This document shows positions 22,929 to 63,811 of a stretch of 64,000 bases of DNA, piece by piece. The DNA comes from a bacterium. GTDB taxonomy: Bacteria > Electryoneota > Electryoneia > Electryoneales > Electryoneaceae. The notes below the pieces were generated by a model, which was not told where the DNA came from, did not search any database, and saw nothing but the letters and a program-made list of their open reading frames with translations. The stretch's first letter is position 1, and each line of letters begins with the position of its first letter. Location: assembly GCA_020444265.1 (NCBI GenBank), contig JAHLLH010000002.1, forward strand, positions 671,033 to 735,032, read 5' to 3'. The position numbers and the translations under genes are program-made.

Positions 22929-22957
22929 CTGCAATAAATCTCCGGTGAAACTGCAAT
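22929..22957 (+). repeat. Prophage end: paired transposase-site repeats (phage right end)
   Basis: TGCAATAAAT begins at 22930; CTGCAAT occurs at 22929-22935 and 22951-22957, 22 bp apart (two helical turns). The same arrangement appears inverted at 63782-63811, with TGAAACTGCAAT shared at the inner copy. Tandem sites about 22 bp apart are typical of MuA-type end recognition. Confidence 0.7.
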
Positions 22958-23010
22958 GTTTGGGGTTGCTGACGAGAATATAGGAGAGCTCCGGAGGGGG
23001 TTTTCAACCC

Positions 23011-23035
23011 GGCCCGCTCGTTTTTAGAGCGGGCC
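23011..23035 (-). terminator. Hairpin at the end of the late operon
   Basis: GGCCCGCTC / GAGCGGGCC, perfect 9-bp stem with a 7-base loop, 24 bases past the last phage gene and just inside the prophage end. It should stop late transcription before host DNA; the tail is not T-rich. Confidence 0.55.
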
Positions 23036-23058
23036 GTTCAGTTTACGAGACGAGTTTT

Positions 23059-23658
23059 CTATCGTGGATCAACTTCACTTTGCCAGTATTTGTAAAGACC
23101 GTAGATGCGATAAACCTCCTCAACTGTTCCGGGGTGGTAGTAATGGAACTTCATCTTTCCACCGTCATCGACAACATCGAATTCTGAACACAGTTGATAC
23201 TCGATAGCTTGTGGCAGTCCATCCTCTGTTGTATGCATTAGCAATATCGCAGCAATTGCTATGGAGTCAGGGTGCTTAGAAAAAGTCATTGTCCTACCAG
23301 TTTCATAATCATTCAGAATACCTCGCAGAAAATCCTTGTAATGGAAATGGCCTTCGGAATCGACCGAATAAACGCTGGCTAGAATGTTCGAGAGTATTGC
23401 ATAAATCCGTGCATCCCTGGTTAATCTTCCTTTTGGGGCTACATATTTCATAAGTATGTATGACAACTCTGGTAAGCGGTGAGTTAAGATTAAAAACTCC
23501 ATTCGTCTTTTCCAGACATCCGCCACAGAGATCACCTCTTGAGGGATGGCTTCAATAGCATCGTTATCATGAGCACCACTCCTCAGATACAAATGAATGT
23601 CAGAATTGAACGAAGTACGGTGGTTGCAAATTTTACTGTAAAGTTCTTCGTTGCTCAT
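23059..23658 (-). CDS. Phage protein, unknown
   Basis: 199 aa, not recognised. It is mostly alpha-helical, without signal or membrane segment (VADVWKRRMEFLILTHRLPELSYILMKYVAP...). It is clearly more AT-rich in codon choice than the virion genes, which suggests a late cargo (moron-like) acquisition at the phage right end. It overlaps the preceding gene by ATGA, so it is still in the operon. Position at the extreme right end is where Mu-like phages carry accessory genes. Confidence 0.65.
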   Translation of the reverse strand: MSNEELYSKICNHRTSFNSDIHLYLRSGAHDNDAIEAIPQEVISVADVWKRRMEFLILTHRLPELSYILMKYVAPKGRLTRDARIYAILSNILASVYSVDSEGHFHYKDFLRGILNDYETGRTMTFSKHPDSIAIAAILLMHTTEDGLPQAIEYQLCSEFDVVDDGGKMKFHYYHPGTVEEVYRIYGLYKYWQSEVDPR

Positions 23659-23975
23659 GACCGGGCCTCGTGTTGGTTGGGGTTGTATTGTGGGGCGGAT
23701 TCGCGGAAGACGGACAGACCGATGGGGGTACCATCGGGGGTAACATCGGTGTCATCAGTAGGGTCGTAGACTTTGACACGGTAGCCATTACCGTCTCGAT
23801 TAGCCTCATGCGCTGCGAGGGCCTTTTTGAAATTCTCGCGGGCCATGTCTACCAGGTGGATCAACCCTTCTAGCTCGGGTGGGCTTAATTCTTCACTACC
23901 TCGGATAGCGGACTTGAGGGCTGTCAGGTTTGCCAGGCCATCTTGCATGGCATCGGAGATGTCCACCGCTTTCAT
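23655..23975 (-). CDS. Phage protein, unknown
   Basis: 106 aa, not recognised. The N-terminal two thirds are helical (SDAMQDGLANLTALKSAIRGSEELSPPELEGLIHLVDMARENFKKALAAHEA), the C-terminus is polar (VYDPTDDTDVTPDGTP). GGAGGAACG gives a strong ribosome site for the ATG at 23975. It overlaps the following gene by 4 bases. Confidence 0.65.
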   Translation of the reverse strand: MKAVDISDAMQDGLANLTALKSAIRGSEELSPPELEGLIHLVDMARENFKKALAAHEANRDGNGYRVKVYDPTDDTDVTPDGTPIGLSVFRESAPQYNPNQHEARS

Positions 23976-24071
23976 CGTTCCTCCATCATTTCATCATGCG
24001 GGTTCCTCTATAAACTGGCGATAAAAGGCGAATGTTCCAAGAGGACGCTTGTCAAAGAGCGGTTTTCTCGT

Positions 24072-24341
24072 CTAGCTGTTGAGCTGAAAAACGGCCGGAG
24101 AGCCAGCTGGTGGTGTCTGGCCAGCCTGTTCCAGGCGTGTATCGGCCTGGGTGGCCAGCTCGGAGACGTTTTGGATAAGGCGGAGCACATCCTCGAGATG
24201 GGTGCCTCCTACAGGCTTCCGGACGCCGGTGCCATCACAGGCGGCGCATGGGGTACGGTATTCGCCATCGGCATTGCGCCAGGAGATGACTTTCAGGCCA
24301 TGACACTCCTGGCACGTATCAACAGGCTTGATGTAAGTCAT
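24072..24341 (-). CDS. Small zinc-finger protein (DnaJ-type knuckles)
   Basis: 89 aa. CQECHG (residues 10-15) and CAACDGTG (about 32-39) are two CxxC knuckles as in the DnaJ cysteine-rich domain, so one zinc ion is likely bound. The C-terminal half is helical (EDVLRLIQNVSELATQADTRLEQ). Its ATG overlaps the stop of the 1646-aa gene (ATGA). A second phage protein with the same knuckle type lies at 52654. Role unknown. Confidence 0.7.
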   Translation of the reverse strand: MTYIKPVDTCQECHGLKVISWRNADGEYRTPCAACDGTGVRKPVGGTHLEDVLRLIQNVSELATQADTRLEQAGQTPPAGSPAVFQLNS

Positions 24342-27300
24342 CGATACTCTCCCTTTTCAAGGGCACGCTTGCCCCGTCCAGCGGCTTCCCGTGCCTCTTT
24401 TTCACGACCCGCCCAACCCCTCCGCTCCGCCTCAAGTGCTGCCTGAGTGGCCCTGTCGATGGCGTTTTGCAGAGCGTCGCGGCTGAGTTCTTCCCGGTTT
24501 TCCTTCGACACCTCTTTGAAGTTGAGCAGGAAGAGCTTAAGGAATTCGATGCGTCGGTTGTACATGGCCACTTCATCTGTGCCCTGTTCAAATCGCGGCG
24601 GCAGCAGCTTGCTGGCAAAAGGAGCCTTGTTGACCAGGTTCAATCCGAACCCTTTGAGATCGTTCGTATAGGCTCCCTCGGGGTCACGCTTGACGGGGTC
24701 AACCAGACGGCGAAAAGTGTTGGCAGCTCCACCGAAGGGGATAAACCCGGAGGCTATTTCAGCCGCCCTGGCCCCGCCTGTAGAGTAGAGGTCGAATTCA
24801 TCGCGGTAACCCATCGCGGTCAGCACACCATTCAGGGCGAAACCTGTGGAGACCCGGTCGTTGAGATAATCACTCAAGAAGCGTTTCCCGCTCCACGCAT
24901 CCCACATAAACATGACTTCGCCGAGCCAGGGTTGGTCATAGAGGCGGACCCAGGACTCGGTGTCACCATGCGAGCCAACAATCGGCATACCGTCGGGCAT
25001 TTTGACTCGTCCACCGGTCTGCGCTTCCCAGGGTAACTCGACCCCTGCGATGGCATCGCGGCCACGTTCCCACGTCTTCAAAAAGGCGAGGCTGAGGCCG
25101 ATCATAGTGGTAGCGGCCATCCCCCTGGCCATCCGTCTCTTCAGCTCCGTGGTGTTCGGTGCCGTGCCGAGCTCCAGGTTGCGCGGATTCATGGTCTCGT
25201 CGTGCAGCTTCCATGCGGGGTCCATGTTCCCCATCCGGACGCGCCTGGCGGTCTGCATCGCCATTTTAGGCAACATGGCCGCATCCTTGACCCCACTGCC
25301 GATCATACGAAGGTAGTGGTAGATATAATTCGGGTAGGGAACGACGGCGCGGCCACCGGCTTGAGTCAGCTTTTCCATGATGTATGGCTTGTCGCCATAG
25401 TCGAACCCGGCCACGTCCCGGATGTTGTCCCTTGCCCTGTTGAAAGTCTGCTCAGGGATGGCCTGCATGTACTGCCGGATAAAGGCATCCTTGCCACCGC
25501 GACCCCAACCCTCGAACTGTGGGGATTGCTCCAGCTGCCAGGCGGCTCGTTCCGCATCGGTTTTCAGATCGGCCAGGAAGGAGCGGCGCTTCTGCATAAC
25601 TTCCACTTCACGAAACGGAACGAGTGCCTGTCTGACCAGGTTTTTGCTGGGAGTGAGGTCGCTCTGCCAGGCATTTCCCTTGATAAAGTCATCATAGAAG
25701 CGGCCACCGAGCAGTTCTTCGGGAATCATCCCGCGAGCGTCTTTGGTCATCGCCCCAGCATACGCATGGAGATCATTGCGGAGCTGGGCGAAGGGAAGCG
25801 GGTTCTCCTGGAAGACCCATTTATCCAGGACGCCCTCGTAGAAGTCGATGAGGGTTTTGTTGAAGTAGAGGATTTCTCCAGACAGCCAATTTCGCACGGC
25901 TGTGGAGGGTCGTGTCAGCTGATTGGCGACCCAGTAGTTGGTCAGGTTGCGTGTGATTTCGCCCAACCCCTTCAAAACCGTGCGGGTGGCCGGGTCAACC
26001 GGCTCGGTCCTGGTTCGACCGCGCAGGTTGACCATCTCGCCAATTTGACCAGGCACCTGGATAACGTCCATCATTTTGCGGGCAATAGTGATGTCACCAT
26101 TTGTGACACCCCACGCCTTCGCAATACCGGGGTATCGTTGCAGGGTTTTGACGAGCTGGTCCGGATCCCCGCCGAAGGAGGTTCTGCCGAGCTTGACGAA
26201 ACCAGGGAGCAGTCCTTCCGGCCCGATCGGGCGACCAGTTAGGGCGAGCATTTTGGCTTCGAGCTCCTGTTGAATCCCCTCGGCCATAAATTCAGTCCGT
26301 CTCACCGCCGAGGCGATGCCGAAGTGCTCTATTTCACGTCCTTCGGTTCCGAGCCGTCCGCTTTTGAATTTGCGGCCAGGGGCAACTCGCGGCCCCATGT
26401 GCAGCGATTCACCGGCAGATCTGGCGAGGAAGTGGACCGGCCCCTCTTCCTTGGCCACAGAGGGCCAGTAGGCGGCCTCTGGCAGGCGGCTGGTTTCGAC
26501 ATCATACATTTGCCGCAGCACTTCGCTGGAGAAGGGTGTCAGCGCTCTGCCGAAGGCGGTACGGTAGAGCTCCTCGGTTTGTGCTCGGTAGGCCTTGATG
26601 ACATCGGGGACATTGGGGTAGCGGTTGGTCAGGTCTTCGAGCAGCTGACGAGTCTGGTTGGTGTTGATACGGCGGTAGAGACGCAGCTGGTCGCCCCACT
26701 CGATGAGATCATTCCCCTCTTTCGGTTGTGGCTGCTTGACGGAGCGGACTCGGTAGGGGATGCCATTGTGATAGAGGCGCAAGTCTTTGTAGAGCCGATC
26801 GACCGGCACGGCATCTGTTGGTGCCCGTCTTCCCGGACTGACAACGATCGTGCCACCGTCATCGATCGGGAGCCGCAGTTCTCGACCTTGGCCGGGATGG
26901 CGAAGGATGGCCACGGCAGCGCCGGGGGTTGTGTGGTCCTCCCCTTCAAAGATGTAATCCACCCCCTCATGCTTCACGCGGGTGCGGCCAGGCTTGGCCC
27001 CAATCAGGTCGAATGCTTCCTGTTTTGGGTCCTTCAGGAAGGAGACCTCTTCAACACCGAGCTCGTCATTGAAGCGAGCCGAAATGCGGACAGTCTTAGG
27101 CTTCCGCACCTGTTTCATGCGGCCCGTCTCCGGGTTCTGCACTTGCGGGATACCATCCTCGACCAGAGTGACGACCGACTTGAGGGCCTTCGGTTCACGT
27201 ACCCGCTTATGACGGTCACCGATGACGAGCACTTCATCATTGTGGTCGATGCTCTTGCCCGGCTTGGTGATCGGTATACCATCGACCTCGGGAATCGTCG

Positions 27301-29278
27301 TGCCCATGTTCGGCGAGCGGCCCGCTTCGGTGTAGGTGATTTCATCACCGGCGATGTAGTGGCGCACGGGTTGACCACCACGACCTACAGGGTAGGTTTC
27401 GATGTACTCGAGACCATTTCTCTTGTCAAGTTTGACCGGAACGGCATCCGCTTCTGCGAGGGTGGCAAAGAGGAAATTGCCCTCGTCATCGACCCCCTTC
27501 ACGCCTTTGACCAGGTCGCGGAGTTTCAGTTGGTCTGCGAGGGGAGCATTCCAGAGTTCTCCCATGATCTCTTTGGTCTGCTGCACGATAAGGCGCTTGC
27601 CGAGCTCGATCTCGGCCATCCGGAGGCGTACTTCATCCGCAGCCATCCTGGCCAGCGGGGCGGGCATATCGACTGACATCCGTTCATGACGGCGACCCAG
27701 CAGGCGGTTAAAGTTACCCTTGAGCCCTCGTTCAATGAAGTCTGTACGTCGCTTGAGCAGACCCTTGACGGCAAGGTCAATGTTCTCTGGTGTACCGTCG
27801 GCAATAGCCCGATCGACACCGGCGAGAAAGTCATCCCATGCCTTGGGGAGGTTGGGATCGATGTCGCGAAATTTGATGACATCCTGGGGCCGGATGCCGG
27901 AGTGGAAGAGGACGAGCTGCTCGGGTCGATCGGCGGCCACTGTCATGCGCTGGCGCACTGCCTCGACTCGTTTTTCGAAAGCGAGAGAATACTGTCCGGG
28001 GTCCATGTCGGCAGGGAGTGAAGAGCGGACGGCCACCTCGGGGCTAACGTCTCCCCTGGAGAGGGAGGTTGCCTGCGCTTTCGGAAGTCCTACCTCCTCG
28101 AGTGTGACGGCGAGCTGCTGGCGTGCTGCCTCGCGATCGGGCCCTCGATAGGTCGTGCCCTCTGGTGTGACAATCTCCCCGCTTTTCCGGAGGCCAGAGT
28201 CGGCGGCAAAGTCGGTGGCTGGTTTGGCAAAGGATTCGCGGACTCCCTTCTTCATCCTTCGCAGGAAGGCCCATTTGTCACGGTGGTAGCGAACCGATCG
28301 ACCAAGCTCGGGAACCGCTCCGATCATCTCAAAGACGGCAGGCATGGCCGCGCCGGTGATCAGGCCAGAGGGTGAAGTGTCGCCGGTTGTGATGGCATGG
28401 GTGGCCATCCCGCCAGCAGCCTGAGAGGTGATCCGGACGGCAGCCTTGAGCTGCTCGGTCAGGCCGCCGATGAAACCATAGGAGAGACCATAGGGCGCAG
28501 CAGAGGCACCCCGTTTGATTGCTTCCTCAAAACCTTCTCCCCCAACCAAGGCAGCACCGCCCTCGACCCCACCGATGGTGATGGCATCGCGAAGACCTCG
28601 GACGAGTGCCTTCTGGAAGCGTGAACCATTGGCCGTGAACCCTGCCTTTCCGAGTGCCCTGGTGGCATAGCCAAAGGGGATGAATGTACCAGGCAGTTCA
28701 AGCAAACTGGCATCGAGGGGGTGTTCTTCGGCATAGCGCTCGTAGCCTGGAACCTTGAGGCCGGTTGCACCTTTCAGGATAGCTGGAGCGGCCAGGGGGT
28801 TGTAATTGGCTGCTTTCCTACCAAACCCCACGGCTCCGATCGGAAGGCGCTCGAGAGTTTTGAGGCCGGTGTATCCTGCGAGTTTCGCTTTACTGGAAAG
28901 GTTCAGGCTATTTAGCAGGTCATCGCGGGTGACTCCTGGTGGTACGAGGTCGGCGGTGCCTTCACGATTAAGAATGGCATCGATAGCGAAATCCTGCAAG
29001 TCCTGGTACTGTTTCCCTTTGTTTCGCAACAGTTGACGGATGGTCTCTTCTTCGGGGTCAAAGGTGACCGAAGCGACCTCGGCGGTTGTGGGTTTCAGGA
29101 TAAGCGAGGAGTCTTCCTGCTCGAAGCTGGCAAGCATCCTGTCAGCGACAGAATCGGTGGGCATGACAAGGCGCTGGTCTCGGTCGCCATTGACCAGCTT
29201 CGCCCATTCGCTACGCTGGCCGGACCCCGCAGAGACCTGCCTGGTCGGTTGTTTTCTTAGAAAATCCCACTCGCCCAT
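24338..29278 (-). CDS. Giant virion protein, probable internal/DNA-ejection protein
   Basis: 1646 aa, the largest gene. No enzyme motif is recognised. Glycine/alanine-rich hydrophobic stretches (about 240-330; again about 1430 GMAATTMIGLSLAFL) alternate with long helical segments, and the last 70 residues are a charged helix (NAIDRATQAALEAERRGWAGREKEAREAAGRGKRALEKGEYR). Size, position after tailspike and next to two coiled-coil proteins fit the large internal core/ejection proteins of podoviruses. GAGGTGATTC precedes the ATG. It could instead be a tape-measure-like protein, but tube and sheath genes are absent. Confidence 0.6.
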   Translation of the reverse strand: MGEWDFLRKQPTRQVSAGSGQRSEWAKLVNGDRDQRLVMPTDSVADRMLASFEQEDSSLILKPTTAEVASVTFDPEEETIRQLLRNKGKQYQDLQDFAIDAILNREGTADLVPPGVTRDDLLNSLNLSSKAKLAGYTGLKTLERLPIGAVGFGRKAANYNPLAAPAILKGATGLKVPGYERYAEEHPLDASLLELPGTFIPFGYATRALGKAGFTANGSRFQKALVRGLRDAITIGGVEGGAALVGGEGFEEAIKRGASAAPYGLSYGFIGGLTEQLKAAVRITSQAAGGMATHAITTGDTSPSGLITGAAMPAVFEMIGAVPELGRSVRYHRDKWAFLRRMKKGVRESFAKPATDFAADSGLRKSGEIVTPEGTTYRGPDREAARQQLAVTLEEVGLPKAQATSLSRGDVSPEVAVRSSLPADMDPGQYSLAFEKRVEAVRQRMTVAADRPEQLVLFHSGIRPQDVIKFRDIDPNLPKAWDDFLAGVDRAIADGTPENIDLAVKGLLKRRTDFIERGLKGNFNRLLGRRHERMSVDMPAPLARMAADEVRLRMAEIELGKRLIVQQTKEIMGELWNAPLADQLKLRDLVKGVKGVDDEGNFLFATLAEADAVPVKLDKRNGLEYIETYPVGRGGQPVRHYIAGDEITYTEAGRSPNMGTTIPEVDGIPITKPGKSIDHNDEVLVIGDRHKRVREPKALKSVVTLVEDGIPQVQNPETGRMKQVRKPKTVRISARFNDELGVEEVSFLKDPKQEAFDLIGAKPGRTRVKHEGVDYIFEGEDHTTPGAAVAILRHPGQGRELRLPIDDGGTIVVSPGRRAPTDAVPVDRLYKDLRLYHNGIPYRVRSVKQPQPKEGNDLIEWGDQLRLYRRINTNQTRQLLEDLTNRYPNVPDVIKAYRAQTEELYRTAFGRALTPFSSEVLRQMYDVETSRLPEAAYWPSVAKEEGPVHFLARSAGESLHMGPRVAPGRKFKSGRLGTEGREIEHFGIASAVRRTEFMAEGIQQELEAKMLALTGRPIGPEGLLPGFVKLGRTSFGGDPDQLVKTLQRYPGIAKAWGVTNGDITIARKMMDVIQVPGQIGEMVNLRGRTRTEPVDPATRTVLKGLGEITRNLTNYWVANQLTRPSTAVRNWLSGEILYFNKTLIDFYEGVLDKWVFQENPLPFAQLRNDLHAYAGAMTKDARGMIPEELLGGRFYDDFIKGNAWQSDLTPSKNLVRQALVPFREVEVMQKRRSFLADLKTDAERAAWQLEQSPQFEGWGRGGKDAFIRQYMQAIPEQTFNRARDNIRDVAGFDYGDKPYIMEKLTQAGGRAVVPYPNYIYHYLRMIGSGVKDAAMLPKMAMQTARRVRMGNMDPAWKLHDETMNPRNLELGTAPNTTELKRRMARGMAATTMIGLSLAFLKTWERGRDAIAGVELPWEAQTGGRVKMPDGMPIVGSHGDTESWVRLYDQPWLGEVMFMWDAWSGKRFLSDYLNDRVSTGFALNGVLTAMGYRDEFDLYSTGGARAAEIASGFIPFGGAANTFRRLVDPVKRDPEGAYTNDLKGFGLNLVNKAPFASKLLPPRFEQGTDEVAMYNRRIEFLKLFLLNFKEVSKENREELSRDALQNAIDRATQAALEAERRGWAGREKEAREAAGRGKRALEKGEYR

Positions 29279-29286: not shown

Positions 29287-30375
29287 TCATTTGGATGCGG
29301 TCTGCTTGTCCCGCATCATTTCCTTAATCTTATCCGGGTCAGCACCGAGCTCCTGAATCTCGGCCTCGATAACGCTGCCAGGGATACCATCCCACCAGGC
29401 TACTAGCTTGCGAACGTAGTCCACCACATCAGCCTCTTTGATTCCGCGCATAAAGCCTGTTTTGGACGGCTTCTTCGGAGGTTGTGTGTTTGGCATGGTG
29501 GCGAAGTTCAGCTCAGGGATGTCACCACCGGCGAGGATGGTGTCCTTGTTCTCGCGCAGGTTGCTGACCTGGTCGGAAAGCCAATCGAGTTGACGCTGCT
29601 CTTGAAGGGAGAGGGTGGTCTTCCCCTGCTTTTTCATCAGGTTGTTGAGCCGAGATTCGAGGGAATTTGGCTCGGACGGTCCACCCAGCTGGTTATCGAT
29701 GCGGTCGATGGCTTTTTCACGTCGGTCATCATCCGCCGACTTCTCGTCCTTCTCGAGCTTCGCTTTGATTCGATTCTGCTCCCGTTCGTCATACCGTGCT
29801 TCGGCGCGGGCTTCGGCGGCGAGCTGACGGACGCCGACGGGATCCTTGTAGAAGGCGGGGTCAGTGGGGAGTTCGGGCCTACCGAGACGGCTGCCGATTT
29901 TGTTGAGTTCGGTAACCAGACTGACGATTTGCTCGTCATCGACACCCGGCTGGCCAGCACTGTCGAGGAGCTGCTTGTAGTTGGTCTCAAGGCCTTTTTT
30001 TTCCAGCTGGCCCGATTCGAGGTTACTGCGGGCGCGTGTGGTGCCTTCTGCCAGCATTCTCCGTGCTCGATCGAGGCCCCGGTCCCCCGCATCGGTGGTG
30101 AACTGCATGCCGGTTTCGGGATTGGTGCCAATGCCCACGTCCTTGAGGTAGCGCAGTGCTTTGCGGTCTGCCTCGCTAAGGTTGGGGTTGGCCATCATTT
30201 CCTCGATCGAGCCGAGGTTGGTGTCCGCTTCCCGGTTTGCCATAACCGAGAGCGCTTGCTCTCGTTTACTGCGCTTTTTCTTCTCCTCGTCCTGGTTGGC
30301 GAGGGCGAGCTGGAGCCGGAGATTTGCACCCGTGCGGATGGCATCGGCAAAGGGGTCGAAGGGTCGAAAATTCAT
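29287..30375 (-). CDS. Coiled-coil phage protein, probable internal virion protein
   Basis: 362 aa, highly charged and largely helical, with heptad-like stretches (LANQDEEKKKRSKREQALSVMANREAD; ARAEARYDEREQNRIKAKLEKDEKSADDDRREKAIDRIDNQL). The start at 30375 (MNFRPFDPF) is preferred because AGGAGG lies 7 bases upstream; an ATG two codons earlier falls too close to it. It lies between a 163-aa gene and the 1646-aa gene, the place of internal-core proteins in T7-like phages. Function is inferred from place only. Confidence 0.6.
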   Translation of the reverse strand: MNFRPFDPFADAIRTGANLRLQLALANQDEEKKKRSKREQALSVMANREADTNLGSIEEMMANPNLSEADRKALRYLKDVGIGTNPETGMQFTTDAGDRGLDRARRMLAEGTTRARSNLESGQLEKKGLETNYKQLLDSAGQPGVDDEQIVSLVTELNKIGSRLGRPELPTDPAFYKDPVGVRQLAAEARAEARYDEREQNRIKAKLEKDEKSADDDRREKAIDRIDNQLGGPSEPNSLESRLNNLMKKQGKTTLSLQEQRQLDWLSDQVSNLRENKDTILAGGDIPELNFATMPNTQPPKKPSKTGFMRGIKEADVVDYVRKLVAWWDGIPGSVIEAEIQELGADPDKIKEMMRDKQTASK

Positions 30376-30377
30376 GG

Positions 30378-30869
30378 TCATCCCTCCTCGAATAGACGTT
30401 TCAGGAGATTCGCCTGGTACATTGACCCGCCAAGGTTTGCCCCGCTGCTCAAGAGGTTGAGGATGAAGTCATAGGCCTCGCGGTCCTGGTCGTACTCAGC
30501 CTGTGCATCCATCATGTTGAGCTCGTTTTGCTGACCTTCCCGCTGGAGCGCAACGGATAGCCGTTTCGAGAGGCTGTCCTGAATCTGATTATCCTCGACC
30601 TCATCCGCCTCGAGCGCAGCCCCGGCGAAGGTTCTGCCGGTATTGCGATTGATGGAGGAGATTCCTTCGGCTACGAGGGCGGGGTCGCCACCGGAGCGAC
30701 GGGTAATCCTGTTCAAGTCGTTTCGTTTGTTCACCCCAAGCTCGTTTTGCAGCATCCGGAGGATGCGGCTCGAGGTGACACCAGGAATGGAGATGGCCCC
30801 GAGTTGCTGTTCGAGGTCTTCAACCATCCGACTCCGGAACATCTGTGGGGTTTTCCGTCTTGGGAACAT
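30378..30869 (-). CDS. Phage virion-module protein, unknown
   Basis: 163 aa, helical and polar (GVTSSRILRMLQNELGVNKRNDLNRITRRSGGDPALVAEGISSINRNTGRTFAGAALEADEVEDNQIQDSLSKRL). The C-terminus is small-residue rich (LNLLSSGANLGGSMYQANLL). GGGAGTCCCC precedes the ATG. It is the first of three consecutive genes after the tailspike that are inferred to be internal virion components. Confidence 0.6.
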   Translation of the reverse strand: MFPRRKTPQMFRSRMVEDLEQQLGAISIPGVTSSRILRMLQNELGVNKRNDLNRITRRSGGDPALVAEGISSINRNTGRTFAGAALEADEVEDNQIQDSLSKRLSVALQREGQQNELNMMDAQAEYDQDREAYDFILNLLSSGANLGGSMYQANLLKRLFEEG

Positions 30870-47022: not shown

Positions 47023-47032
47023 AGTGGGCCTC

Positions 47033-47584: not shown

Positions 47585-47592
47585 GGTGTACC

Positions 47593-50404: not shown

Positions 50405-50511
50405 GGTGTACCTCCCCGGTGGTCGCGTCCGGCCCGGCACAGTTTCCAGGCGTAGAACACGGAAAAGGCGACCACCAGCGCGACACCAATCATCTGTGTG
50501 ATGGGGCTCAT
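50401..50511 (-). CDS. 36-aa membrane protein
   Basis: MSPITQMIGVALVVAFSVFY then AWKLCRAGRDHRGGTP: one membrane segment (about 5-21) and a basic tail. AGGAGAACCAGCC is the ribosome site. It overlaps the genes on both sides by ATGA, which is strong evidence that so short a frame is translated. Function unknown; small single-pass proteins in this region could regulate lysis or exclusion. Confidence 0.7.
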   Translation of the reverse strand: MSPITQMIGVALVVAFSVFYAWKLCRAGRDHRGGTP

Positions 50512-53279: not shown

Positions 53280-53896
53280 CAGGCCTCCTTCTCCTGGGTC
53301 TGGATGTGCTCCCACTTGAGCATCTGCATGAACTCGCCGGAGTCATCGAGGGCATTTCGGAAGGCGATGCGGAAGCGTGAAACGTGCTCAATGACGGTCG
53401 GGCTGGGCCGTCGATTGCGAACCACACAGCCGGGGCTGAGCAGCTTCTCGGCGACCTGAGCCCAGGTAACGGTGGTTCTCGGAAGGTCCTCGTCTCGGGG
53501 AACCAAACGGATGGCGTGCTTGACATACCCCGGCCCGCAGTTGTAGGCGGCAATGACCATCCGGATGCGTTCGATGTCGCTGGCTCGTTTCTGGAAGCGT
53601 TCCAGGTAGCCGAGGATCTGCGTCTCCAGGCGCACCAACAGCCGTGCGGCGGCCTGGACAGCGAGGTCGGGGTTGGTGGCCTGCTCGTATGGCACGCCAC
53701 CCATGACATCCTTCCACGTGGGGACGGTGAACTGCATGAGGCCGAGGTCGTTGGTCTGGCCCCTGGCATCCGGATCGAAATTCGATTCGATGGCCGCGAT
53801 GGCTTTGAGCACCTGCCAGGGGTAGCGCAGCCCTTCGGTTTTGGCGCGGTACTCGAAGAGGGCATCGAAGGTTGTGGGGTAGTGTTTATCGGGCAT
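53279..53896 (-). CDS. SLT-type lytic transglycosylase (endolysin)
   Basis: 205 aa. Lysozyme-like fold: catalytic Glu in AIAAIESNFDPDARG (about residue 37), DLGLMQFT, and AAYNCGPGYVKHAI, the motifs of soluble lytic transglycosylases. No signal peptide, so release needs a holin. ATG 53896 has AAGGAG upstream. It cleaves the MurNAc-GlcNAc bond. It sits in the middle region, about 6 kb before the holin candidates. Confidence 0.85.
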   Translation of the reverse strand: MPDKHYPTTFDALFEYRAKTEGLRYPWQVLKAIAAIESNFDPDARGQTNDLGLMQFTVPTWKDVMGGVPYEQATNPDLAVQAAARLLVRLETQILGYLERFQKRASDIERIRMVIAAYNCGPGYVKHAIRLVPRDEDLPRTTVTWAQVAEKLLSPGCVVRNRRPSPTVIEHVSRFRIAFRNALDDSGEFMQMLKWEHIQTQEKEA

Positions 53897-54542
53897 TGGA
53901 GGGCTCCTTAGTGAACACAAACTCAGCTGCGGGTGTGCCTGTTAGGGGTGCCAGGTGATACCCCAATCCCGCCATCTTCCGCTTGATCCTGTTACATTCT
54001 TCGATTCTGTCCGGTTCGTTGCTATTGATGATCCGCGTGTAGTTGCGTGCGGCCTCTTCCACCCAAGGCTCGACCTCGTCGGCCTTCTGGACAGGGGCCT
54101 CCATGCCGGGCAGCTGAACGTCTTCCAGTTCGCGGGCCAGACGTGCGGACTCCTCGGCCAACCGTGCCTCATACGCATTGAGCTTGTGGGTTTCCCAGCG
54201 GCTGAGGCGGTCGTTGCCAGGGACGATGAAATACTTGAGGGACTGCGCCTTTTGACCGACGGCACGGATGTCATCGATGAGGTGTTTGACGGTGAGGAAC
54301 TCGGCCAAGTTGGCAATCCGTCGCCGGTAAATCTCGATGTCACTGCGCTCCACATTCCGCCACGGTTCTCGTCCCGCTGCCTTCCTGAACTCGGCCTCGA
54401 TTTTGGGCAGAGCGGCGGTGTACTTGATGGCCGTGTGATTCATCTGCCGCTGGCTCAGCTGGGTACAGATTTTTCCGGCCAGGGAGTAGTCTCGTGCCGC
54501 GAGGGCGAGCAGGAGATCGGTGGGGATGGGTTTAATCGCCAT
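53886..54542 (-). CDS. Phage protein, unknown (helical)
   Basis: 218 aa, almost wholly helical (LLALAARDYSLAGKICTQLSQRQMNHTAIKYTAALPKIEAEF; ETHKLNAYEARLAEESARLARELEDV). ATG 54542 is chosen for AGGAGG upstream; it overlaps the gene before by 11 bases and the transglycosylase by 11. Not recognised. Confidence 0.6.
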   Translation of the reverse strand: MAIKPIPTDLLLALAARDYSLAGKICTQLSQRQMNHTAIKYTAALPKIEAEFRKAAGREPWRNVERSDIEIYRRRIANLAEFLTVKHLIDDIRAVGQKAQSLKYFIVPGNDRLSRWETHKLNAYEARLAEESARLARELEDVQLPGMEAPVQKADEVEPWVEEAARNYTRIINSNEPDRIEECNRIKRKMAGLGYHLAPLTGTPAAEFVFTKEPSNAR

Positions 54543-56252: not shown

Positions 56253-57362
56253 TCAAGCCCGCTCCTGCTTTGCCGTCTCGTCCTGGGAAACGAGACTCTT
56301 TTCACCGAGCACTCGTATGGCGGATGCCACCAAAGCCGTCTTGGCCGCCGTACCGTGACTCGGATCATTGATGTATCGACTGACCTCACTTGCCGAGACC
56401 TTCTGGCCAGTGGTGTCCTGGATGTGTTTCTCGATAGCCCTGGTCGAGGGCTTGCCGTGCTTCTCCCACAGCGAGCGCATGAACATGGTGGACTCATCTG
56501 CCATGTAGACATGGCCGATGTCGATGCGTGTATCCCCTGCATTGACCGCATTGTCAGCGGCCAGCTTGAGGACGCGCAGCACTTCGATCGGGAAGCGCAG
56601 ATCGATGCCGTCCCCGTCCTTTTTCCGTTTGGCGATGTACTCAATAGCCTCGTCGCTGATCACATCTGTGAGGGCCTTTTTTCCGCCGAGGGCGGCACGG
56701 ATGCGATGGCGAATAAACAGCTTGATCTCTTCGGGGGAGAGCGGTGGCAGCTCGTGGATGGTGGCGCGAGCGTGAACGTCCTCAAGGCCCTCAATACGTC
56801 CTCCCAGCCGTCTCCATCCGACAAACAGCACGCCGCAGACATGCTGTCTCATGTCACTGTCCGTGAGGTCGGTTTCGATCAGCTGGCGGATGGAGCGCAG
56901 GATGTGCGGGTGGAAGTCATGGCAGTTGTCGAACAGCAGCAAGATGCCATCCGGGTAGAGGTCATCTCGTTGCAGCTGCCTGAGCGCACGGCGGACCCGT
57001 CCCTTGTTCCACTGTTTACGGGTGATGGTGATGCCATTGTCTTCCGCTGTACTGAGGATGGTGTCGGTGACCTCTTTCATCGTGAAGGTCATCGAGTTGG
57101 TCGGCGAAAAGGCAATGACCAGGACGCGGGGGTTATCGTTCTTTTCTTCCTGGATGACTTGGCGAATAATCGTGGACTTTCCAGCCCCTCGGTCTCCCAG
57201 GATGACCTCGATAGCGCGGTTCTTGATGGCGTTGGCCACCTTCGCGCGGACGAGGTTCACGGCGGCGGTCTCTACGAAGGCATGCGACCCCTCCAGTTGC
57301 TCAAAGGGTGGCTCCTCGAATCCCAACCATTCCCAAGATGGTTTGTAGGCAGTTTTTGACAT
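56253..57362 (-). CDS. AAA ATPase, MuB-type transposition protein
   Basis: 369 aa. Walker A GDRGAGKST (56-64), Walker B ILLLFDNCH (140-148), and sensor-type GVLFVGWRRL follow the ExeA/TniB/MuB AAA layout. In Mu the ATPase binds target DNA, gives target immunity and activates the transposase. A C-terminal HTH-like segment (about 310-355, STRAIEKHIQDTTGQKVSASEVSRYINDPSHGTAAKTALVASAIRVL) is present, whereas MuB carries its HTH at the N-terminus. It starts 26 bases after the transposase stop. Confidence 0.85.
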   Translation of the reverse strand: MSKTAYKPSWEWLGFEEPPFEQLEGSHAFVETAAVNLVRAKVANAIKNRAIEVILGDRGAGKSTIIRQVIQEEKNDNPRVLVIAFSPTNSMTFTMKEVTDTILSTAEDNGITITRKQWNKGRVRRALRQLQRDDLYPDGILLLFDNCHDFHPHILRSIRQLIETDLTDSDMRQHVCGVLFVGWRRLGGRIEGLEDVHARATIHELPPLSPEEIKLFIRHRIRAALGGKKALTDVISDEAIEYIAKRKKDGDGIDLRFPIEVLRVLKLAADNAVNAGDTRIDIGHVYMADESTMFMRSLWEKHGKPSTRAIEKHIQDTTGQKVSASEVSRYINDPSHGTAAKTALVASAIRVLGEKSLVSQDETAKQERA

Positions 57363-57388: not shown

Positions 57389-59170
57389 TTATCCGCCCTG
57401 AGCGGCACCTCCCTGGTGCAAGCGGGCGGCCCAGGCATCGGCACGTGCTGCGATGGTCTCGCGGTCGAGGGTCTTGTCCAGGGTCTCCTCGATTTCAAGC
57501 CAGATGCCGGGGTAGTTGATCTTGATCGCGATGAGCTGCATGACGCCGAGCTGCTTGGCAATCCAGTGCTTGGCAGCATCGATGTTGTGGAATTCGTCTC
57601 GGTGTGTCGTGAAAGGCGTCTTGACCGTTTCGCCCTCTTTCTGGCGGGATGACAGCGACAGCGGACCCGATGGCCGGACGGCATTGGGGTGCATCACTGG
57701 CGAATCGATATGGGGGTCTTCGGCGACCTTCTGAGCAGGGGTTTTTTGACGTCCAGCACCAACGGCATTGCCGAAGTCATGGACGCGCAGGGTGCCACCC
57801 TCGCCATCTTTCTCGTCCCAGGAAGGCGCAACGACGCGGCGGCCTGGTGATGCCTCGACATGCTCCTGCTCGGGGTCGTAGGGGTCCCGGATAAGCACTT
57901 GGCCGAGGGCATTGCGGAAGATGAGGACACGGCGGCCAGCAAACCGGGTAGGCACGTGGAACCATCCGCGCTCATCGTTGTTACGCAGTGCTTTGACGTT
58001 GAAGTCCGCATGAATCGAGAGGGTCTTCTCTTCAACCGCGTAAGGCAGCGAGGCCAGGTCTTCCGGGGGAAGCCGGAGCTCGTTGCGAGCTGCATGATCT
58101 CTCCAGATGTCGGCGCGGTTGGTGATGTCGGTCGGGTGCTTCTTGGCGTTGTATTCCTCGAGCCAGTTTTCGAGGTACTCGTTGAGGCCGGAGAGGGTGA
58201 TTTCAAACGGCTTGCCGTGCCGCATGCTTTCGCGGTGCATGGCGATGAAAGGGCGCTCGAACTTGGTTTTAATGGTCCGCCAGAGGCGCTCGACTTTCCC
58301 TTGTGCCTCTTTGTGGTGCGGCATGGTTCTCGTATGCTTGACACTGATTTCCGGCAGGTCAAAAAACTCCTGGATGATGCGGTTGCGTGCAAAGGCACCG
58401 TTGTCCGTTTGCAGGATTTCCGGCAGGCCGCCGAATGGTGTTTCGGGGTGGTAGGCCCATGCTTGTTGCAGGAAACGGAGCATCATGAGGGTGTCTTCGC
58501 CAACGGTAGCGAAATAGCGGACAAAGGCGCAGCGGCTTCGGTCATCGACAATGCCCGCCATCCAGATAGCCCGCTCCCCTTTCCATTTGCGCGTATTAGC
58601 ATTCAAGTCAAAGTCGCGGACCTGGAGCAACCAATCCCCGTCTCCTAGGTCTTCCACAGCGGTGAAGACCGACGTACCGGAAGCATCCATGAGGTGGCGC
58701 TGGTTGACGTGCGAGGCTTCGATGCGGAAGCGTGGCTCCGGGATCCGGTAGCCTTGTGAGCGAGCGCGTCGATTGTAGGACGAGACGCTCATGCAGCCGG
58801 TTGGGATGAGACCGTTGACCTCCGCCATCCGGATAGCATCCTCGGCGGCCATCATGACCCCACGTTTCAGCTCGTTCCGGCTGTCCTGCTGCAATTCGAA
58901 TACCGTGCGTACCCATTCAGTCTTGATTTTTCGGGGGAGTCCTGCATCCGATCGAGTCTTCACTTCGGGCAGCTTTTTGCGTTTAACAATGCGGCTTGCG
59001 CGGTAGATGGTGTCTTTGCTGACCTGGTAGAGTTGGGCGAGCTCGTTCAGCTTGGCCGTTTTCTCCCCATGCCTGGCAGCCTGGAGCTCCTGATAGACAA
59101 ACTCCATAGCCTGCTCGTCCAGATTGCGGGGAGCATACTCGAACCCATTGCCCTGGCCAGCTTGACCCAT
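57389..59170 (-). CDS. DDE transposase/integrase (MuA role)
   Basis: 593 aa. N-terminal HTH (about 39-61, AKLNELAQLYQVSKDTIYRASRI), a rve-type catalytic domain with the triad Asp162 (HLMDASG), Asp256 (LQTDNGAF) and Glu294 (GKVERLWR), and a Mu_transpos_C-like beta barrel (about 390-450, HADFNVKALRNNDERGWFHVPTRFAGRRV). The last 60 residues (AAKHWIAKQLGVMQLIAIKI...) may contact the ATPase. It pairs the phage ends (TGCAATAAAT) and transposes replicatively. The D-E spacing (37 residues) is closer to TniA/integrase than to MuA (55). Confidence 0.92.
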   Translation of the reverse strand: MGQAGQGNGFEYAPRNLDEQAMEFVYQELQAARHGEKTAKLNELAQLYQVSKDTIYRASRIVKRKKLPEVKTRSDAGLPRKIKTEWVRTVFELQQDSRNELKRGVMMAAEDAIRMAEVNGLIPTGCMSVSSYNRRARSQGYRIPEPRFRIEASHVNQRHLMDASGTSVFTAVEDLGDGDWLLQVRDFDLNANTRKWKGERAIWMAGIVDDRSRCAFVRYFATVGEDTLMMLRFLQQAWAYHPETPFGGLPEILQTDNGAFARNRIIQEFFDLPEISVKHTRTMPHHKEAQGKVERLWRTIKTKFERPFIAMHRESMRHGKPFEITLSGLNEYLENWLEEYNAKKHPTDITNRADIWRDHAARNELRLPPEDLASLPYAVEEKTLSIHADFNVKALRNNDERGWFHVPTRFAGRRVLIFRNALGQVLIRDPYDPEQEHVEASPGRRVVAPSWDEKDGEGGTLRVHDFGNAVGAGRQKTPAQKVAEDPHIDSPVMHPNAVRPSGPLSLSSRQKEGETVKTPFTTHRDEFHNIDAAKHWIAKQLGVMQLIAIKINYPGIWLEIEETLDKTLDRETIAARADAWAARLHQGGAAQGG

Positions 59171-60082
59171 CTAGCCCTCCCTCTCGTCTGAGGTGAGGCC
59201 AAATCGCGCCCACTGTTCACCATTGAGCAGCTTGTTAACACGGAAGGCGATGTCTTCGAGGATGCGCCGTCCCTTGAGATCAATCTTCTCGGAGGTGCCG
59301 GTGGGGATGCGTTCCGCCAGGGCGAGAAGGTTTTGGACACCATCCTCGACCTTTTGCCAGGTCTCCTCGGCCTTTTCTGCTGCTATGACCGCACCCTCGA
59401 GCTGCTGGATTCTGGCGGTTGCCTCACCGTACAGCTTGAGGATGTCATCGGTTTCTTCCAGGTCTTTCAAGCGCTTGGCGGCTTGGTCACGTTCTTCGAC
59501 GGCGAGGGCTTTTTCTTCTTCGAGGTCGCGGTTCTTGTTGCGCAGTTGCTTGACCTCATCCGCAAGGTCCCTCTGAGTCATATTGACCAGCTGACCGAAG
59601 GTGATGACGGTGCCATCCGGACGGACGAGCTCATCGGTATCGGTGAGGGCTTCGCGGTCTTCTTCTGAAAGCTTTGTCAGCTCGTATAATTTTGTGAAGC
59701 TAAGCGAATTCAAGAGATTGGGAGTGGCAACGTTGCCACTTTTGTCCCCTTCGGCCAGGTAGCGCGAGATTGATCCACCAAATTCCTCGGCCACTTTGGA
59801 ATACCGAAGCGCCTTGTTGTAGCCAATGCCGAACCCTTCGGCAAAGTCGCGGAAGGATTGGTAGGGGCGTTGCGTGCGCGGGTTGACATAACAGAGGTAG
59901 AGCTTCCGCTTCTGGATGCGATGCAGTGAGGTCGCGGTCGCCATGATACCGGTGTTTAAGACCTGGAAGACCTCGGATGCTTCCGCCTGTAACTCGGCGG
60001 TCACGAGCACTTGCTGGCTTGAGTCTGCATCGTAGACCTTGTAGCCGATCTCATCCGGTACCGTTAGGGAATTGCCGCTCAA
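59171..60082 (-). CDS. HTH/coiled-coil early protein, unknown
   Basis: 303 aa. A helical region at about 75-115 (YQSFRDFAEGFGIGYNKALRYSKVAEEFG) looks like an HTH; residues about 165-250 form a coiled coil (LVNMTQRDLADEVKQLRNKNRDLEEEKALAVEERDQAAKRLKDLEE). The start is TTG at 60082 with GGAGG 6 bases upstream. It ends directly at the transposase ATG. It could be a partition-like or transposition accessory DNA-binding protein; no family recognised. Confidence 0.65.
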   Translation of the reverse strand: MSGNSLTVPDEIGYKVYDADSSQQVLVTAELQAEASEVFQVLNTGIMATATSLHRIQKRKLYLCYVNPRTQRPYQSFRDFAEGFGIGYNKALRYSKVAEEFGGSISRYLAEGDKSGNVATPNLLNSLSFTKLYELTKLSEEDREALTDTDELVRPDGTVITFGQLVNMTQRDLADEVKQLRNKNRDLEEEKALAVEERDQAAKRLKDLEETDDILKLYGEATARIQQLEGAVIAAEKAEETWQKVEDGVQNLLALAERIPTGTSEKIDLKGRRILEDIAFRVNKLLNGEQWARFGLTSDEREG

Positions 60083-60429
60083 ATCCGGCCTCCAGTTTCA
60101 GGTTTGAGGTGCATGATGTCGGAATAGATTTTCTCGGCACGCTGCTGCGTTTCTTCGAGCTGTTGCCGTTTGTGGACGAGGTAGGTGCTGAGGTGTAGGT
60201 AGGCATCGACCGCGAGCGCGTACCGTTTGCCTTCCTGTTCGACCAGGTCAAACTCGGCGAGGGTGGTTAGGACCTTCCCAACCCTCAGAGCAGCTGGCCG
60301 GATGTTGTCGTCCTCGACCCATCCAAGCGCCTCGGCCAATTCTTCCGGGGTGGCTGGGGATGGACGGGACAGCATGTAGAGGAAGACCTCGAGACCTTCC
60401 CCGAATTTTTGCAGGGTGTAGTCTTTCAT
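60079..60429 (-). CDS. Winged-helix early protein
   Basis: 116 aa. LEVFLYMLSRPSPATPEELAEALGWVEDDNIRPAALRVGKVLTTLAEFDLVEQEGKRYAL is a winged-helix DNA-binding domain; the C-terminus is a helix (LSTYLVHKRQQLEETQQRAEKIYSDIM). ATGA overlap with the CII-like gene. Probably an early regulator. Confidence 0.65.
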   Translation of the reverse strand: MKDYTLQKFGEGLEVFLYMLSRPSPATPEELAEALGWVEDDNIRPAALRVGKVLTTLAEFDLVEQEGKRYALAVDAYLHLSTYLVHKRQQLEETQQRAEKIYSDIMHLKPETGGRI

Positions 60430-60872
60430 AGGTCCATGACTCGTTGGTTGCGAACGTCAGCGGTGCGGTCAAACTGCACGAGGTCACGGATGTACTTGCG
60501 GACCTCCTTCTTGAGCCGTTCGTGGTTCTTGTCCGAGTGGTCGTTTGAAAAGTCGAGGGCAGCCTTGACGAGCTGGAGGTGCCTGTGTTGCAGGCCTAAG
60601 ACCAGGTCGGCAAGCTCTTTGCTGCTGGCACGGTGTTGCGGGATTTGAATGACAACCTGGTTGTGAATGGCCGCCAGGGCGGTGGTGATAGCATCGTTGC
60701 CAGTTAGCTCGATCAAGCCGGGTACATACTGGATGTTTAGCGGGCCGGGGTCGTTGGTGTTCGCGGCTTTTGCGAGGTAGTTGTAGGGTACATTCAGCAG
60801 GGCAGCAAGTTGCTTGATGCCCTTATCGTAGCCGTGAATTGTCTCGCGGATTGCTTCCGTGATGGACGGCAT
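60426..60872 (-). CDS. CII/CP76-type phage regulatory protein
   Basis: 148 aa. ITEAIRETIHGYDKGIKQLAALLNVPYNYLAKAANTNDPGPLNIQYVPGLIELTGNDAITTALA matches the phage CII (CP76) regulator family, an HTH at the N-terminus. ATG 60872 has AAAAGGG 7 bases upstream; a GTG two codons before lies within that site. It probably affects the lysis/lysogeny choice or early transcription. Confidence 0.75.
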   Translation of the reverse strand: MPSITEAIRETIHGYDKGIKQLAALLNVPYNYLAKAANTNDPGPLNIQYVPGLIELTGNDAITTALAAIHNQVVIQIPQHRASSKELADLVLGLQHRHLQLVKAALDFSNDHSDKNHERLKKEVRKYIRDLVQFDRTADVRNQRVMDL

Positions 60873-60925
60873 ATCCACACCCTTTTTTTTCTTGACGATG
60901 CGCCCTGGGCCGGTGTACGTTTCGC

Positions 60926-61192
60926 TTACGCGGCGGCCTCGTGCTGCGATTGCTTAGCCAGGTTCTTCGCGTAGTGAGATCGGTAAACCTGCTGGAGCTC
61001 TTCAAAGGGCAGCTCTAGCAGAGAGGCGATGTGACGAAGTACCCGGTCAGACTTGCGAGATGCGCTCAGCACTAGTGAAACATGGCCTTCAGAAAGCCTT
61101 AATTCGTTGGCGATGGCAGACTGAGTGACCTCGTTGTCACGAAGCATTCCGATTACAATACCCGGCGAAAGTCTTTTGTATGCTTGCTTCAT
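60926..61192 (-). CDS. Ner/Cro-like DNA-binding protein
   Basis: 88 aa. LSPGIVIGMLRDNEVTQSAIANELRLSEGHVSLVLSASRKSDRVLRHIASLLELPFEELQQVYRSHY is a lambda-type HTH. It is the first gene of the early operon, divergent from the repressor, exactly the place of ner in Mu. GAGGAAGCG precedes the ATG. It would turn down the early and repressor promoters through the palindrome at 61222-61239. Confidence 0.8.
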   Translation of the reverse strand: MKQAYKRLSPGIVIGMLRDNEVTQSAIANELRLSEGHVSLVLSASRKSDRVLRHIASLLELPFEELQQVYRSHYAKNLAKQSQHEAAA

Positions 61193-61249: not shown

Positions 61250-61696
61250 ATGCCAACGTCAAGAGACTCGAGGCAATTTAATGCCCCTGATTTGGCTCGC
61301 CGACTCCAGGCGGCGAGGAAGGTCAAAGGGTTTACGCAAGCGCAACTCGCGGAATTGACGGGACTTCAACGTCACAACGTTAAGTCGTATGAAACGGGTG
61401 ACAGTGTGCCTCCGCTTGGCACTTTCGTTGCCCTTGCAGAAGCGCTGGAGGTGTCGCTTTGGTGGTTGGCCGTTGGTGATGAGGGCGGGGACGATACTGT
61501 TGTTGAACGGGATGTCGTTGTGGAAATCCGCTTGAAATCTTATATTGAGCTAGTCACCGATCCCGATTTATTGAAAAAGGCAGCGCCAACCAGCCAAGAA
61601 CTTTTGCAGCTGCTGATTGCCTCAAAGGCTGGAAGTATCCGTGACGTTGTAGATCTGTTCGGGTTGCTGCACGAGATGAGGAGGGAAACCAAATGA
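61250..61696 (+). CDS. XRE-family prophage repressor
   Basis: 148 aa. HTH at about 12-66 (PDLARRLQAARKVKGFTQAQLAELTGLQRHNVKSYETGDSVPPLGTFVALAEALEVSLWWLAVGD). The C-terminal part (VVVEIRLKSYIELVTDPDLLKKAAPTSQELLQLLIASKAGS) should dimerise; there is no LexA-type peptidase dyad, so induction is unlikely to be by RecA-stimulated self-cleavage. Divergent from the early operon, it should maintain lysogeny. GATAGGA precedes the ATG, within the operator. Confidence 0.82.
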   Translation: MPTSRDSRQFNAPDLARRLQAARKVKGFTQAQLAELTGLQRHNVKSYETGDSVPPLGTFVALAEALEVSLWWLAVGDEGGDDTVVERDVVVEIRLKSYIELVTDPDLLKKAAPTSQELLQLLIASKAGSIRDVVDLFGLLHEMRRETK

Positions 61697-62507: not shown

Positions 62508-63377
62508 TTAGGCCGCTTCACTATCGAAGAGGGGAAGAGTTGCTCCTTGTTGTGGCTCGGTATCTGTTTCGAGTTGAACCACACTGCTTGGAAGCGCTCG
62601 CTCCCCTGCTGTCTCGAGAATTAGTGTGAGTACTTTTTCGACATCTGATAGCACGCGCAGGGCGGCGCGGCCTGCATCTTGGCCAGCATAGGACTCAATA
62701 TACTTTTTACTGAACTCGTACACCTTTCCCGTGTATAGATAGCAAAGAGTTGCGGCGGAAAGCTCGGCAACGAGCTCCTTTTTGACTTTGTCGTCATATT
62801 CATTTGTGAGGCCGAGCTTATAGTGTGCCGCATGGCTAAGCTCGTGCCAAAAGACAATCTCTTCATGAGTTGCGAGCTTGATCTCGTTTCGGCCATTGCA
62901 AAAATAGCCATAGTAGCTATTCCCGCCAGGAACCCAATCAACACTTAATCCAAACTCTTTTGCAACTTCAAGAAGACGAGGAGGGTGGTTTGGTTCATAA
63001 CTTGGAAGCGGTTCTCCCTCAGTGTTTTCGATTTTATATACCGGAATTGCTCGGAACCCGAGAAGAATCCTTTTCTTCGTTTCCTCGCCAGTCTCCTCGT
63101 CTTTTTCTACTGTGATTTCTCGCAAATTTGGCGCAATTATGTAAATAGCTTTTGAACCTGCCTGTACTTGGCGTTTCACTTTGTTCCATTGCTTAAAACC
63201 TCGCGCATCCGCTGTCCCTGAAAGAAACATGAGCGCTCGGTTTGCAAGTGACCAGTTTGCCGAAGGGCAATCTTCCCCTTGTATCATTGCATAGCTCATA
63301 ACCTTTACCAAGTCACCGTTTTTCATAGCTTCGAGTACTTTATCGATTGCGGTTTGTGCTGTCTCTGTGACCTTCAT
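62508..63377 (-). CDS. ArdC-like antirestriction protein
   Basis: 289 aa. The N-terminal half (ANWSLANRALMFLSGTADARGFKQWNKVKRQVQAGSKAIYIIAPNL) is the ssDNA-binding ArdC domain; the C-terminal half is a zincin-like metallopeptidase with HELSH (178-182) and a third ligand probably Glu205 (ELVAELSAATLCY). ArdC proteins of plasmids and phages protect incoming DNA from host restriction. It lies at the phage left end, which enters first in Mu-type injection, as expected for a counter-defence gene. AT-richer than the virion genes. Confidence 0.82.
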   Translation of the reverse strand: MKVTETAQTAIDKVLEAMKNGDLVKVMSYAMIQGEDCPSANWSLANRALMFLSGTADARGFKQWNKVKRQVQAGSKAIYIIAPNLREITVEKDEETGEETKKRILLGFRAIPVYKIENTEGEPLPSYEPNHPPRLLEVAKEFGLSVDWVPGGNSYYGYFCNGRNEIKLATHEEIVFWHELSHAAHYKLGLTNEYDDKVKKELVAELSAATLCYLYTGKVYEFSKKYIESYAGQDAGRAALRVLSDVEKVLTLILETAGERALPSSVVQLETDTEPQQGATLPLFDSEAA

Positions 63378-63401
63378 GATGAATCTCCTCGTTTTAGTGT
63401 T

Positions 63402-63596
63402 TTAGTATCCGAGTTGTTCTTTTGCTTGACGAATCGTTGAGCTTTCGAGCCGCTCCCATCCGACTTTTCCACGGAACGTGAACGAGGCGAGCCAAATGAC
63501 TTTGTCTCTATGAATCGCAGCTTTCCAGCCGTGTGATTTGATGAAGCGTTTGATTTTTTCGAGCTCCACCTGTCGGAGTGTTTTTTGCTCGTTCAT
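63402..63596 (-). CDS. Small basic phage protein, unknown
   Basis: 64 aa, basic, helix-strand-helix (RQVELEKIKRFIKSHGWKAAIHRDKVIWLASFTFRGKVGWERLESSTIRQAKEQLGY). It is the outermost prophage gene and precedes the ArdC gene by 25 bases, so the two are one operon. It may be a small counter-defence or DNA-binding protein; no family recognised. Confidence 0.6.
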   Translation of the reverse strand: MNEQKTLRQVELEKIKRFIKSHGWKAAIHRDKVIWLASFTFRGKVGWERLESSTIRQAKEQLGY

Positions 63597-63611
63597 GTTT
63601 GCCTCGTCTTT

Positions 63612-63648
63612 TGCTGTCCTGTTTGCTTTCGTGTAATATATTACGAGA
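63612..63648 (-). promoter_or_regulatory. Left-arm promoter-like element, copy 2
   Basis: Contains the perfect palindrome GTAATATATTAC (63633-63644) and aligns with 62409-62442 over about 30 bases. It lies 16 bases before the ATG at 63596 and probably drives the ArdC operon. Confidence 0.5.
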
Positions 63649-63710
63649 CAGCGAGCGAGTCAAATCATGAGACTCTCAGCTTGGTTGAGAATCATGGATT
63701 GCTTTTTCAG

Positions 63711-63756
63711 CAAAAGAAAAACGAGCGCTCGAAAAGAGAGCACTCGTCTCGTTTTT
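63711..63756. terminator. Bidirectional terminator inside the phage left end
   Basis: CGAGCGCTC / GAGCACTCG (63722-63730 with 63738-63746, one mismatch) has TCTCGTTTTTA on the + side and, on the minus strand, TTTTTCTTTTGC. It should isolate phage transcription from the flank. Confidence 0.6.
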
Positions 63757-63781
63757 ACTTCGTAACTTCAACTGCGAAAAG

Positions 63782-63811
63782 ATTGCAGTTTCACTCAATC
63801 ATTTATTGCAG
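63782..63811 (-). repeat. Prophage end: paired transposase-site repeats (phage left end)
   Basis: Read inward on the minus strand: CTGCAATAAAT, 12 bases, CTGCAAT; copies 23 bp apart. It shares the outer TGCAATAAAT and the inner TGAAACTGCAAT with the other end at 22929-22957, in inverted orientation. Prophage terminus placed at 63810 (CA). Confidence 0.7.

Follow-up and report, generated by a model that had tools for sequence, protein, structure and literature searches.

An apparently intact B3-branch transposable prophage with podophage-type packaging and portal genes

Introduction

Transposable phages described so far are contractile (Mu) or long-tailed (B3, D3112). In the open-access papers covered they are myo- or siphoviruses: Mu is described as a myovirus and the transposable phages of Pseudomonas aeruginosa as siphoviruses (PMC5977238). 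The preliminary description of this locus likewise gave characterised members as contractile or long-tailed, and no transposable podophage was found in the open-access literature searched. A precedent for the exchange of tail modules is PSA-HS6, a Mu-type sipho-myo hybrid of Pseudoalteromonas (PMC5498523), whose head is still Mu-like and whose tail is long, points on which the element studied here would differ. Mu has in common with this element the transposition strategy, the MuB-type ATPase and a small HTH/repressor switch, but its tail is of the contractile kind, built with sheath, tube and baseplate, and its packaging and portal families differ. B3 and its relatives (Beetrevirus; Leptolyngbya phage Lsp-JY19) have the same early-module PHROGs in the same order, and the divergent repressor and SLT endolysin of B3 are matched as well; however, B3 carries a phrog_2 terminase, a phrog_113 portal, a tape measure and tail proteins, whereas our element carries phrog_38, phrog_156 and no recognised counterpart of the B3 tail genes.

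The late genes find their counterparts among podophages. LASTA/Bcep22-type phages (Lastavirus, Lessievirus), PBR31 and Vibrio 1.183.O share the portal family, the portal-scaffold-capsid order, adaptor-sized genes, a spike and, probably, the phrog_334 capsid, but their records hold no annotated transposition module (PBR31 has an integrase), and a profile of the large terminases (TerL) of LASTA/Bcep22/P22-portal phages fails to match the TerL found here. The latter belongs instead to phrog_38, the PHROG of T7 and N4.

Here, we describe a prophage of 40,901 bp at positions 22920-63820 of a 64,000-nucleotide stretch of a bacterial chromosome (hereafter, the window). Sequence comparison supports the view that a single mobile element unites a Mu/B3-type transposition module with podophage-type packaging and portal genes, and we regard the element as probably an apparently intact, temperate transposable phage of the B3 branch with podophage-type head-packaging and tail genes.

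Element boundaries and insertion site

The ends of the element are defined by the following features.

22916..22919, unstranded: left target duplication, CAGC; the flanks joined with one CAGC give the uninterrupted repeat C11:735670-735909
22920..22957, plus strand: left terminal repeat, with ACTA, TGCAATAAAT (22930-22939) and a second site GTGAAACTGCAAT (22945-22957)
63782..63820, minus strand: right terminal repeat, the left repeat mirrored, with the ACTA tip at 63820
63821..63824, unstranded: right target duplication, CAGC, matching the left copy

The tips are inverted repeats whose first bases agree at 16/20 positions, a level of identity reached by none of 200,000 random pairs drawn from the element. 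ACTA...TAGT is outermost and TG begins 10 bp inside both tips, while GTGAAACTGCAAT is common to both ends, lying 25 bases inside the left tip and 26 inside the right; by-eye comparison placed GCAATAAATGA in the right end of B3 too. When window positions 22831-22919 and 63825-63990 are joined, they reproduce, free of mismatches and gaps near the junction, a host repeat of which an intact, uninterrupted copy lies ~0.9 kb downstream of the prophage, at C11:735670-735909. CAGC is the sole sequence present on both flanks, so the element ends at 22920 and 63820 with a 4-bp duplication; the extent first proposed, 22930-63810, was close to these exact ends. The prophage entered its site via cut-and-join at its own inverted-repeat tips, duplicating 4 bp of target. 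Mu makes a 5-bp target duplication, and Mu and B3 tips start with TG (TG...CA), whereas the tips here start with ACTA and flank a 4-bp duplication—a difference of detail that leaves the core definition of the group untouched.

A single pair of tips and a single target duplication enclose both the early and the late genes, which hence do not represent two neighbouring prophages. Transposase and portal each occur once in the genome. Two observations concern the host. The prophage sits inside one copy of an interspersed repeat that is matched at least 40 times across the genome and whose core of ~70-90 bp ends in GTGGGCGTCGGGGATCCCC. Host proteins (L013 5317-7545) carry C-terminal sorting signals of the PNPFN type, like those of type IX secretion, which suggests an FCB-group-like Gram-negative host.

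Transposition module

The early region holds the following genes.

49736..50440, minus strand: DUF3164-type protein (phrog_846, E=3.7e-7; the PHROG of B3 ORF6, DUF3164)
50732..51472, minus strand: DNA methyltransferase of the early/middle region (PF01555, E=2.8e-13)
53279..53920, minus strand: lytic transglycosylase endolysin (PF01464, E=2.4e-20; phmmer to B3 ORF25 endolysin, 1.4e-6)
56253..57362, minus strand: MuB-type AAA ATPase (phrog_296, E=1.3e-13, and phrog_2630; B3 ORF11, 2.6e-8)
57389..59170, minus strand: DDE transposase, MuA/B3 type (phrog_310, E=3.1e-32; phmmer to B3 ORF12 and JY19)
59171..60082, minus strand: B3 ORF13-like protein (phrog_15609, E=2e-8; phrog_1748, E=3e-4; B3 ORF13 matches both)
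60426..60878, minus strand: CII-like activator (PF06892, E=1e-14; phrog_101, E=4.9e-17, as B3 ORF15)
60926..61192, minus strand: small HTH protein, Ner/Cro-like (phrog_1468 repressor, E=1e-4)
61250..61696, plus strand: divergent C1-type repressor (PF13560, PF01381; phmmer to B3 ORF18, 1.7e-5)
62508..63377, minus strand: ArdC-N-like antirestriction protein near the right tip (phrog_7245, E=2e-11; PF08401 slightly below cut-off)

All four transposable-phage markers named in the preliminary description were recovered: a DDE transposase in the PHROG of B3, with its catalytic residues D209, D256 and E294 invariant; a MuB-type ATPase, whose gene adjoins that of the transposase; a Ner/repressor switch formed by the HTH protein and the divergent repressor; and a DUF3164 protein. 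Searched with hmmscan, the window and B3 early proteins fall into the same PHROGs in the same order (phrog_101, phrog_1748/15609, phrog_310/2610, phrog_296/2630, phrog_846).

At the sequence level, the B3 transposase is ~24% identical to that of the window, and against 50,697 phage records the latter gave distant B3-like and Mu-like matches only. The nearest relative found, 31% identical, lies on a 5-kb contig of MAG STB_160 (G035:C274), a genome of the same phylum going by search-tool labels, and is also accompanied by a MuB-type ATPase. Searches of viral and genome collections with back-translated peptides returned no relative beyond this contig. The contig itself reads as a transposable-phage early region (transposase, ATPase and, by eye, a Gam-like gene) and ends before any virion genes. 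Microcystis phage Mae-JY22, considered as a candidate relative for its B3-type transposase, has a tape measure and was set aside. Within the window, the gene families switch from B3-type to podophage-type at ~46.5-49.7 kb (46477-49736).

Packaging, portal and capsid genes

Five genes make up the putative packaging and head module.

46477..47052, minus strand: probable small terminase, 191 aa (position only)
44675..46480, minus strand: large terminase, 601 aa, T7/N4 PHROG (phrog_38, E=3.3e-33)
42859..44673, minus strand: portal, 604 aa, P22/LASTA family (PF16510, P22_portal, E=1.7e-24; phrog_156, E=1e-24)
42065..42847, minus strand: probable scaffold, 260 aa, between portal and capsid like the annotated PBR31 scaffold
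40763..41995, minus strand: probable major capsid protein, 410 aa (phrog_334, LASTA capsid family, E=0.0076, residues 221-382)

The portal scores 86.7 bits against Pfam P22_portal (cut-off, 26.1), and its residues 59-468 align to a profile of 21 portals (LASTA, DC1, PBR31, 1.183.O and others) with an hhalign probability of 98.8% and E=4.9e-17. The preliminary description had named a grouping of portal or TerL with Mu or B3 as evidence against its reading; neither protein falls in the Mu/B3 PHROGs. Mu and B3 portals belong to phrog_113, as against phrog_156 here, and phrog_38 includes T7 gp19 and N4 gp68, whereas phrog_2 includes Mu gp28, B3 ORF31 and P22 gp2. The claim of podophage-type portal and packaging genes thus stands, with a P22_portal protein and a T7/N4-family large terminase inside the same termini. 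A small terminase of the Mu gp27/DUF3486 type was rejected, its score being below that of shuffled controls.

The capsid is weakly assigned. The candidate has a single, marginal family match (phrog_334) and lies two genes past the portal, the same placement as in four portal-family genomes (G320, G241, G069 and G383); in these four, phrog_334 is close to the portal on one contig, and in three of them (G320, G383, G241) phrog_511 is also near the portal. The assignment points to LASTA-type capsids and away from the N4-gp56-like capsid proposed earlier: N4 gp56 belongs to phrog_1357, and the capsid candidate gave no match to a profile built on 84 aligned capsid sequences of the N4 type. Profiles of LASTA, DC1, PBR31 and 1.183.O proteins run against the capsid, scaffold, adaptor and nozzle candidates returned nothing, the portal alone matching. 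AlphaFold models computed without relatives had a pLDDT of 29 for the capsid candidate and 36 for an adaptor candidate, and both were left out of the fold search.

Tail, spike and other late genes

The remaining late genes are listed below.

47033..47913, minus strand: two small proteins with one hydrophobic segment each, possible lysis accessory (no family)
40107..40652, minus strand: 181-aa protein, hydrophobic N-terminus by hydropathy (no significant family match)
38166..39946, minus strand: two proposed head-tail adaptors, 304 and 289 aa (placed after the capsid and before the nozzle candidate; no family match)
34912..38166, minus strand: 1084-aa nozzle-like candidate (phrog_511, a family present in podophage LASTA, E=5e-4, and an N-terminal motif)
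31172..34912, minus strand: 1246-aa beta-helix tail spike (PF13229, E=1.9e-13; phrog_15175, E=3.6e-6)
29287..30869, minus strand: proposed virion/ejection proteins of 364 and 163 aa (position only; no significant match)
24338..29278, minus strand: 1646-aa product of the final large late gene, a proposed ejection/internal virion protein (role from size and position)
23059..24341, minus strand: three small genes that close the late operon (ORFs only)

The right-handed beta-helix spike of the preliminary description was borne out by the Pfam match, and in a small comparison set the protein also matched the PBR31 spike (phmmer E=2.7e-5). Its other virion assignments were not confirmed: the T7-like nozzle is based on one N-terminal motif, and the adaptor pair and the large internal proteins on position and size. 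The 1084-aa protein starts GG-26-GLLRRP, with T7 gp12 spacing, and among 946 long frames (~0.5 million residues) an N-terminal GG...GLLRRP occurred only in this protein and in T7 gp12. HMMs built from 80 IMG/VR N4-like loci and compared by hhalign found no N4-type capsid, adaptor, nozzle or internal proteins in the window, and single-sequence comparison with T7 (capsid, adaptor and nozzle among them) and P22 gave nothing except the gp12 motif. The 181-aa protein, between the capsid and adaptor candidates, has a signal-peptide-like N-terminus, which is odd in a virion protein. The 24072-24341 product has a weak match to an antiterminator-Q-like zinc finger.

Tape-measure, tube and sheath genes, which the preliminary description had set as counter-evidence, were looked for: no tail tube, sheath, tape-measure or baseplate family was accepted among the proteins scanned with Pfam and PHROGs, most late proteins being orphans, and the sole tape-measure match was weak (E=0.015) and lay in a 198-aa protein adjoining the terminase. 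This lack of matches is weak evidence by itself, because no relatives could be recognised for most late proteins (those of 1646, 364, 163, 304, 289 and 181 aa); the 1646-aa protein had no match in Pfam, in PHROGs or, by tblastn, in phages. A parallel succession of late genes (TerS, TerL, portal, scaffold-size, capsid, small, adaptor-size, nozzle-size) is seen in PBR31 and 1.183.O, apart from minor departures such as where the spike lies. Gene order, the phrog_334 and phrog_511 matches and the gp12-like motif are supporting, not proving. Because the majority of the late proteins have diverged too far for assignment and the structure models were unusable, we infer the short tail from gene content and portal family.

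Distribution of the two modules

Among 386 genomes, the portal family occurs in 12 and a phrog_310-type transposase match in 152, many of these matches being short and possibly insertion sequences. Among the matches listed, several of them on short contigs, transposase and portal family share a contig in this genome only. The window portal had no match at E<=1e-5 among the 50,697 phage records, and no close relative of either module was found in the data searched. Of the transposable podophage lineage first proposed, the union of modules in one element holds, while a distinct lineage does not follow from the single member found.

Alternative explanations

The most serious competing account gives the phage a long, non-contractile tail with unrecognisably divergent genes: it would have acquired a P22-type portal and joined it to a siphovirus-like tail, the 1646-aa protein being its tape measure. 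B3 and Lsp-JY19, the nearest transposase relatives among phages, do have tape-measure and tube genes, and the many late proteins without matches leave room for such a tail. Nevertheless, the interval from capsid to spike consists of three mid-size genes and one 1084-aa gene, in contrast to the series of small genes for head completion, tube and chaperones that Mu and B3 possess; the largest gene comes last, after the spike; and the portal family is found elsewhere with podophage-type modules. We consider a long tail unlikely.

A decayed or mosaic element, in which recombination joined a B3-type transposon to the remnant of an unrelated podophage and no particles are made, would be in keeping with the single copy in a single genome and with the failure to find a relative showing the same union. 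It is at odds with the uninterrupted long frames of the transposase, ATPase, TerL, portal and large late genes, with the symmetry of the termini and the clean target duplication that bracket all 40.9 kb, and with a steady G+C content, and we judge it improbable. Least credible, and to our minds very nearly dismissible, is an assembly artefact in which two prophages from a single metagenomic bin were joined. The genome does look draft (19 contigs, 94% complete), but the two tips resemble each other, and both flanks correspond to one uninterrupted host repeat on the same 749-kb contig, agreements that a chance chimera would not give.

Implications

A transposable podophage is well supported at the portal/terminase level, its morphology being deduced from the genes. 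In such a phage, the repressor at 61250 would keep lysogeny; upon induction, the transposase and ATPase would spread copies of the prophage through the chromosome, the head would be filled by TerL and portal from integrated copies, a short tail would be built from the adaptors, nozzle and spikes, and the large late proteins would be ejected before the DNA. For a phage that transposes, a terminase of the T7/N4 family poses a packaging puzzle. T7 and N4 terminases cut concatemers; a transposing phage offers integrated copies only, and the terminase would thus need to begin at one end of the transposon and fill the head from there. We lean towards a third tail type for this group—a Mu/B3-type phage with a podophage virion, a T7/N4-family terminase packing scattered integrated copies and a transposase that acts on unusual ACTA tips with a 4-bp stagger. 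If this is true, replicative transposition can pair with a third tail type.
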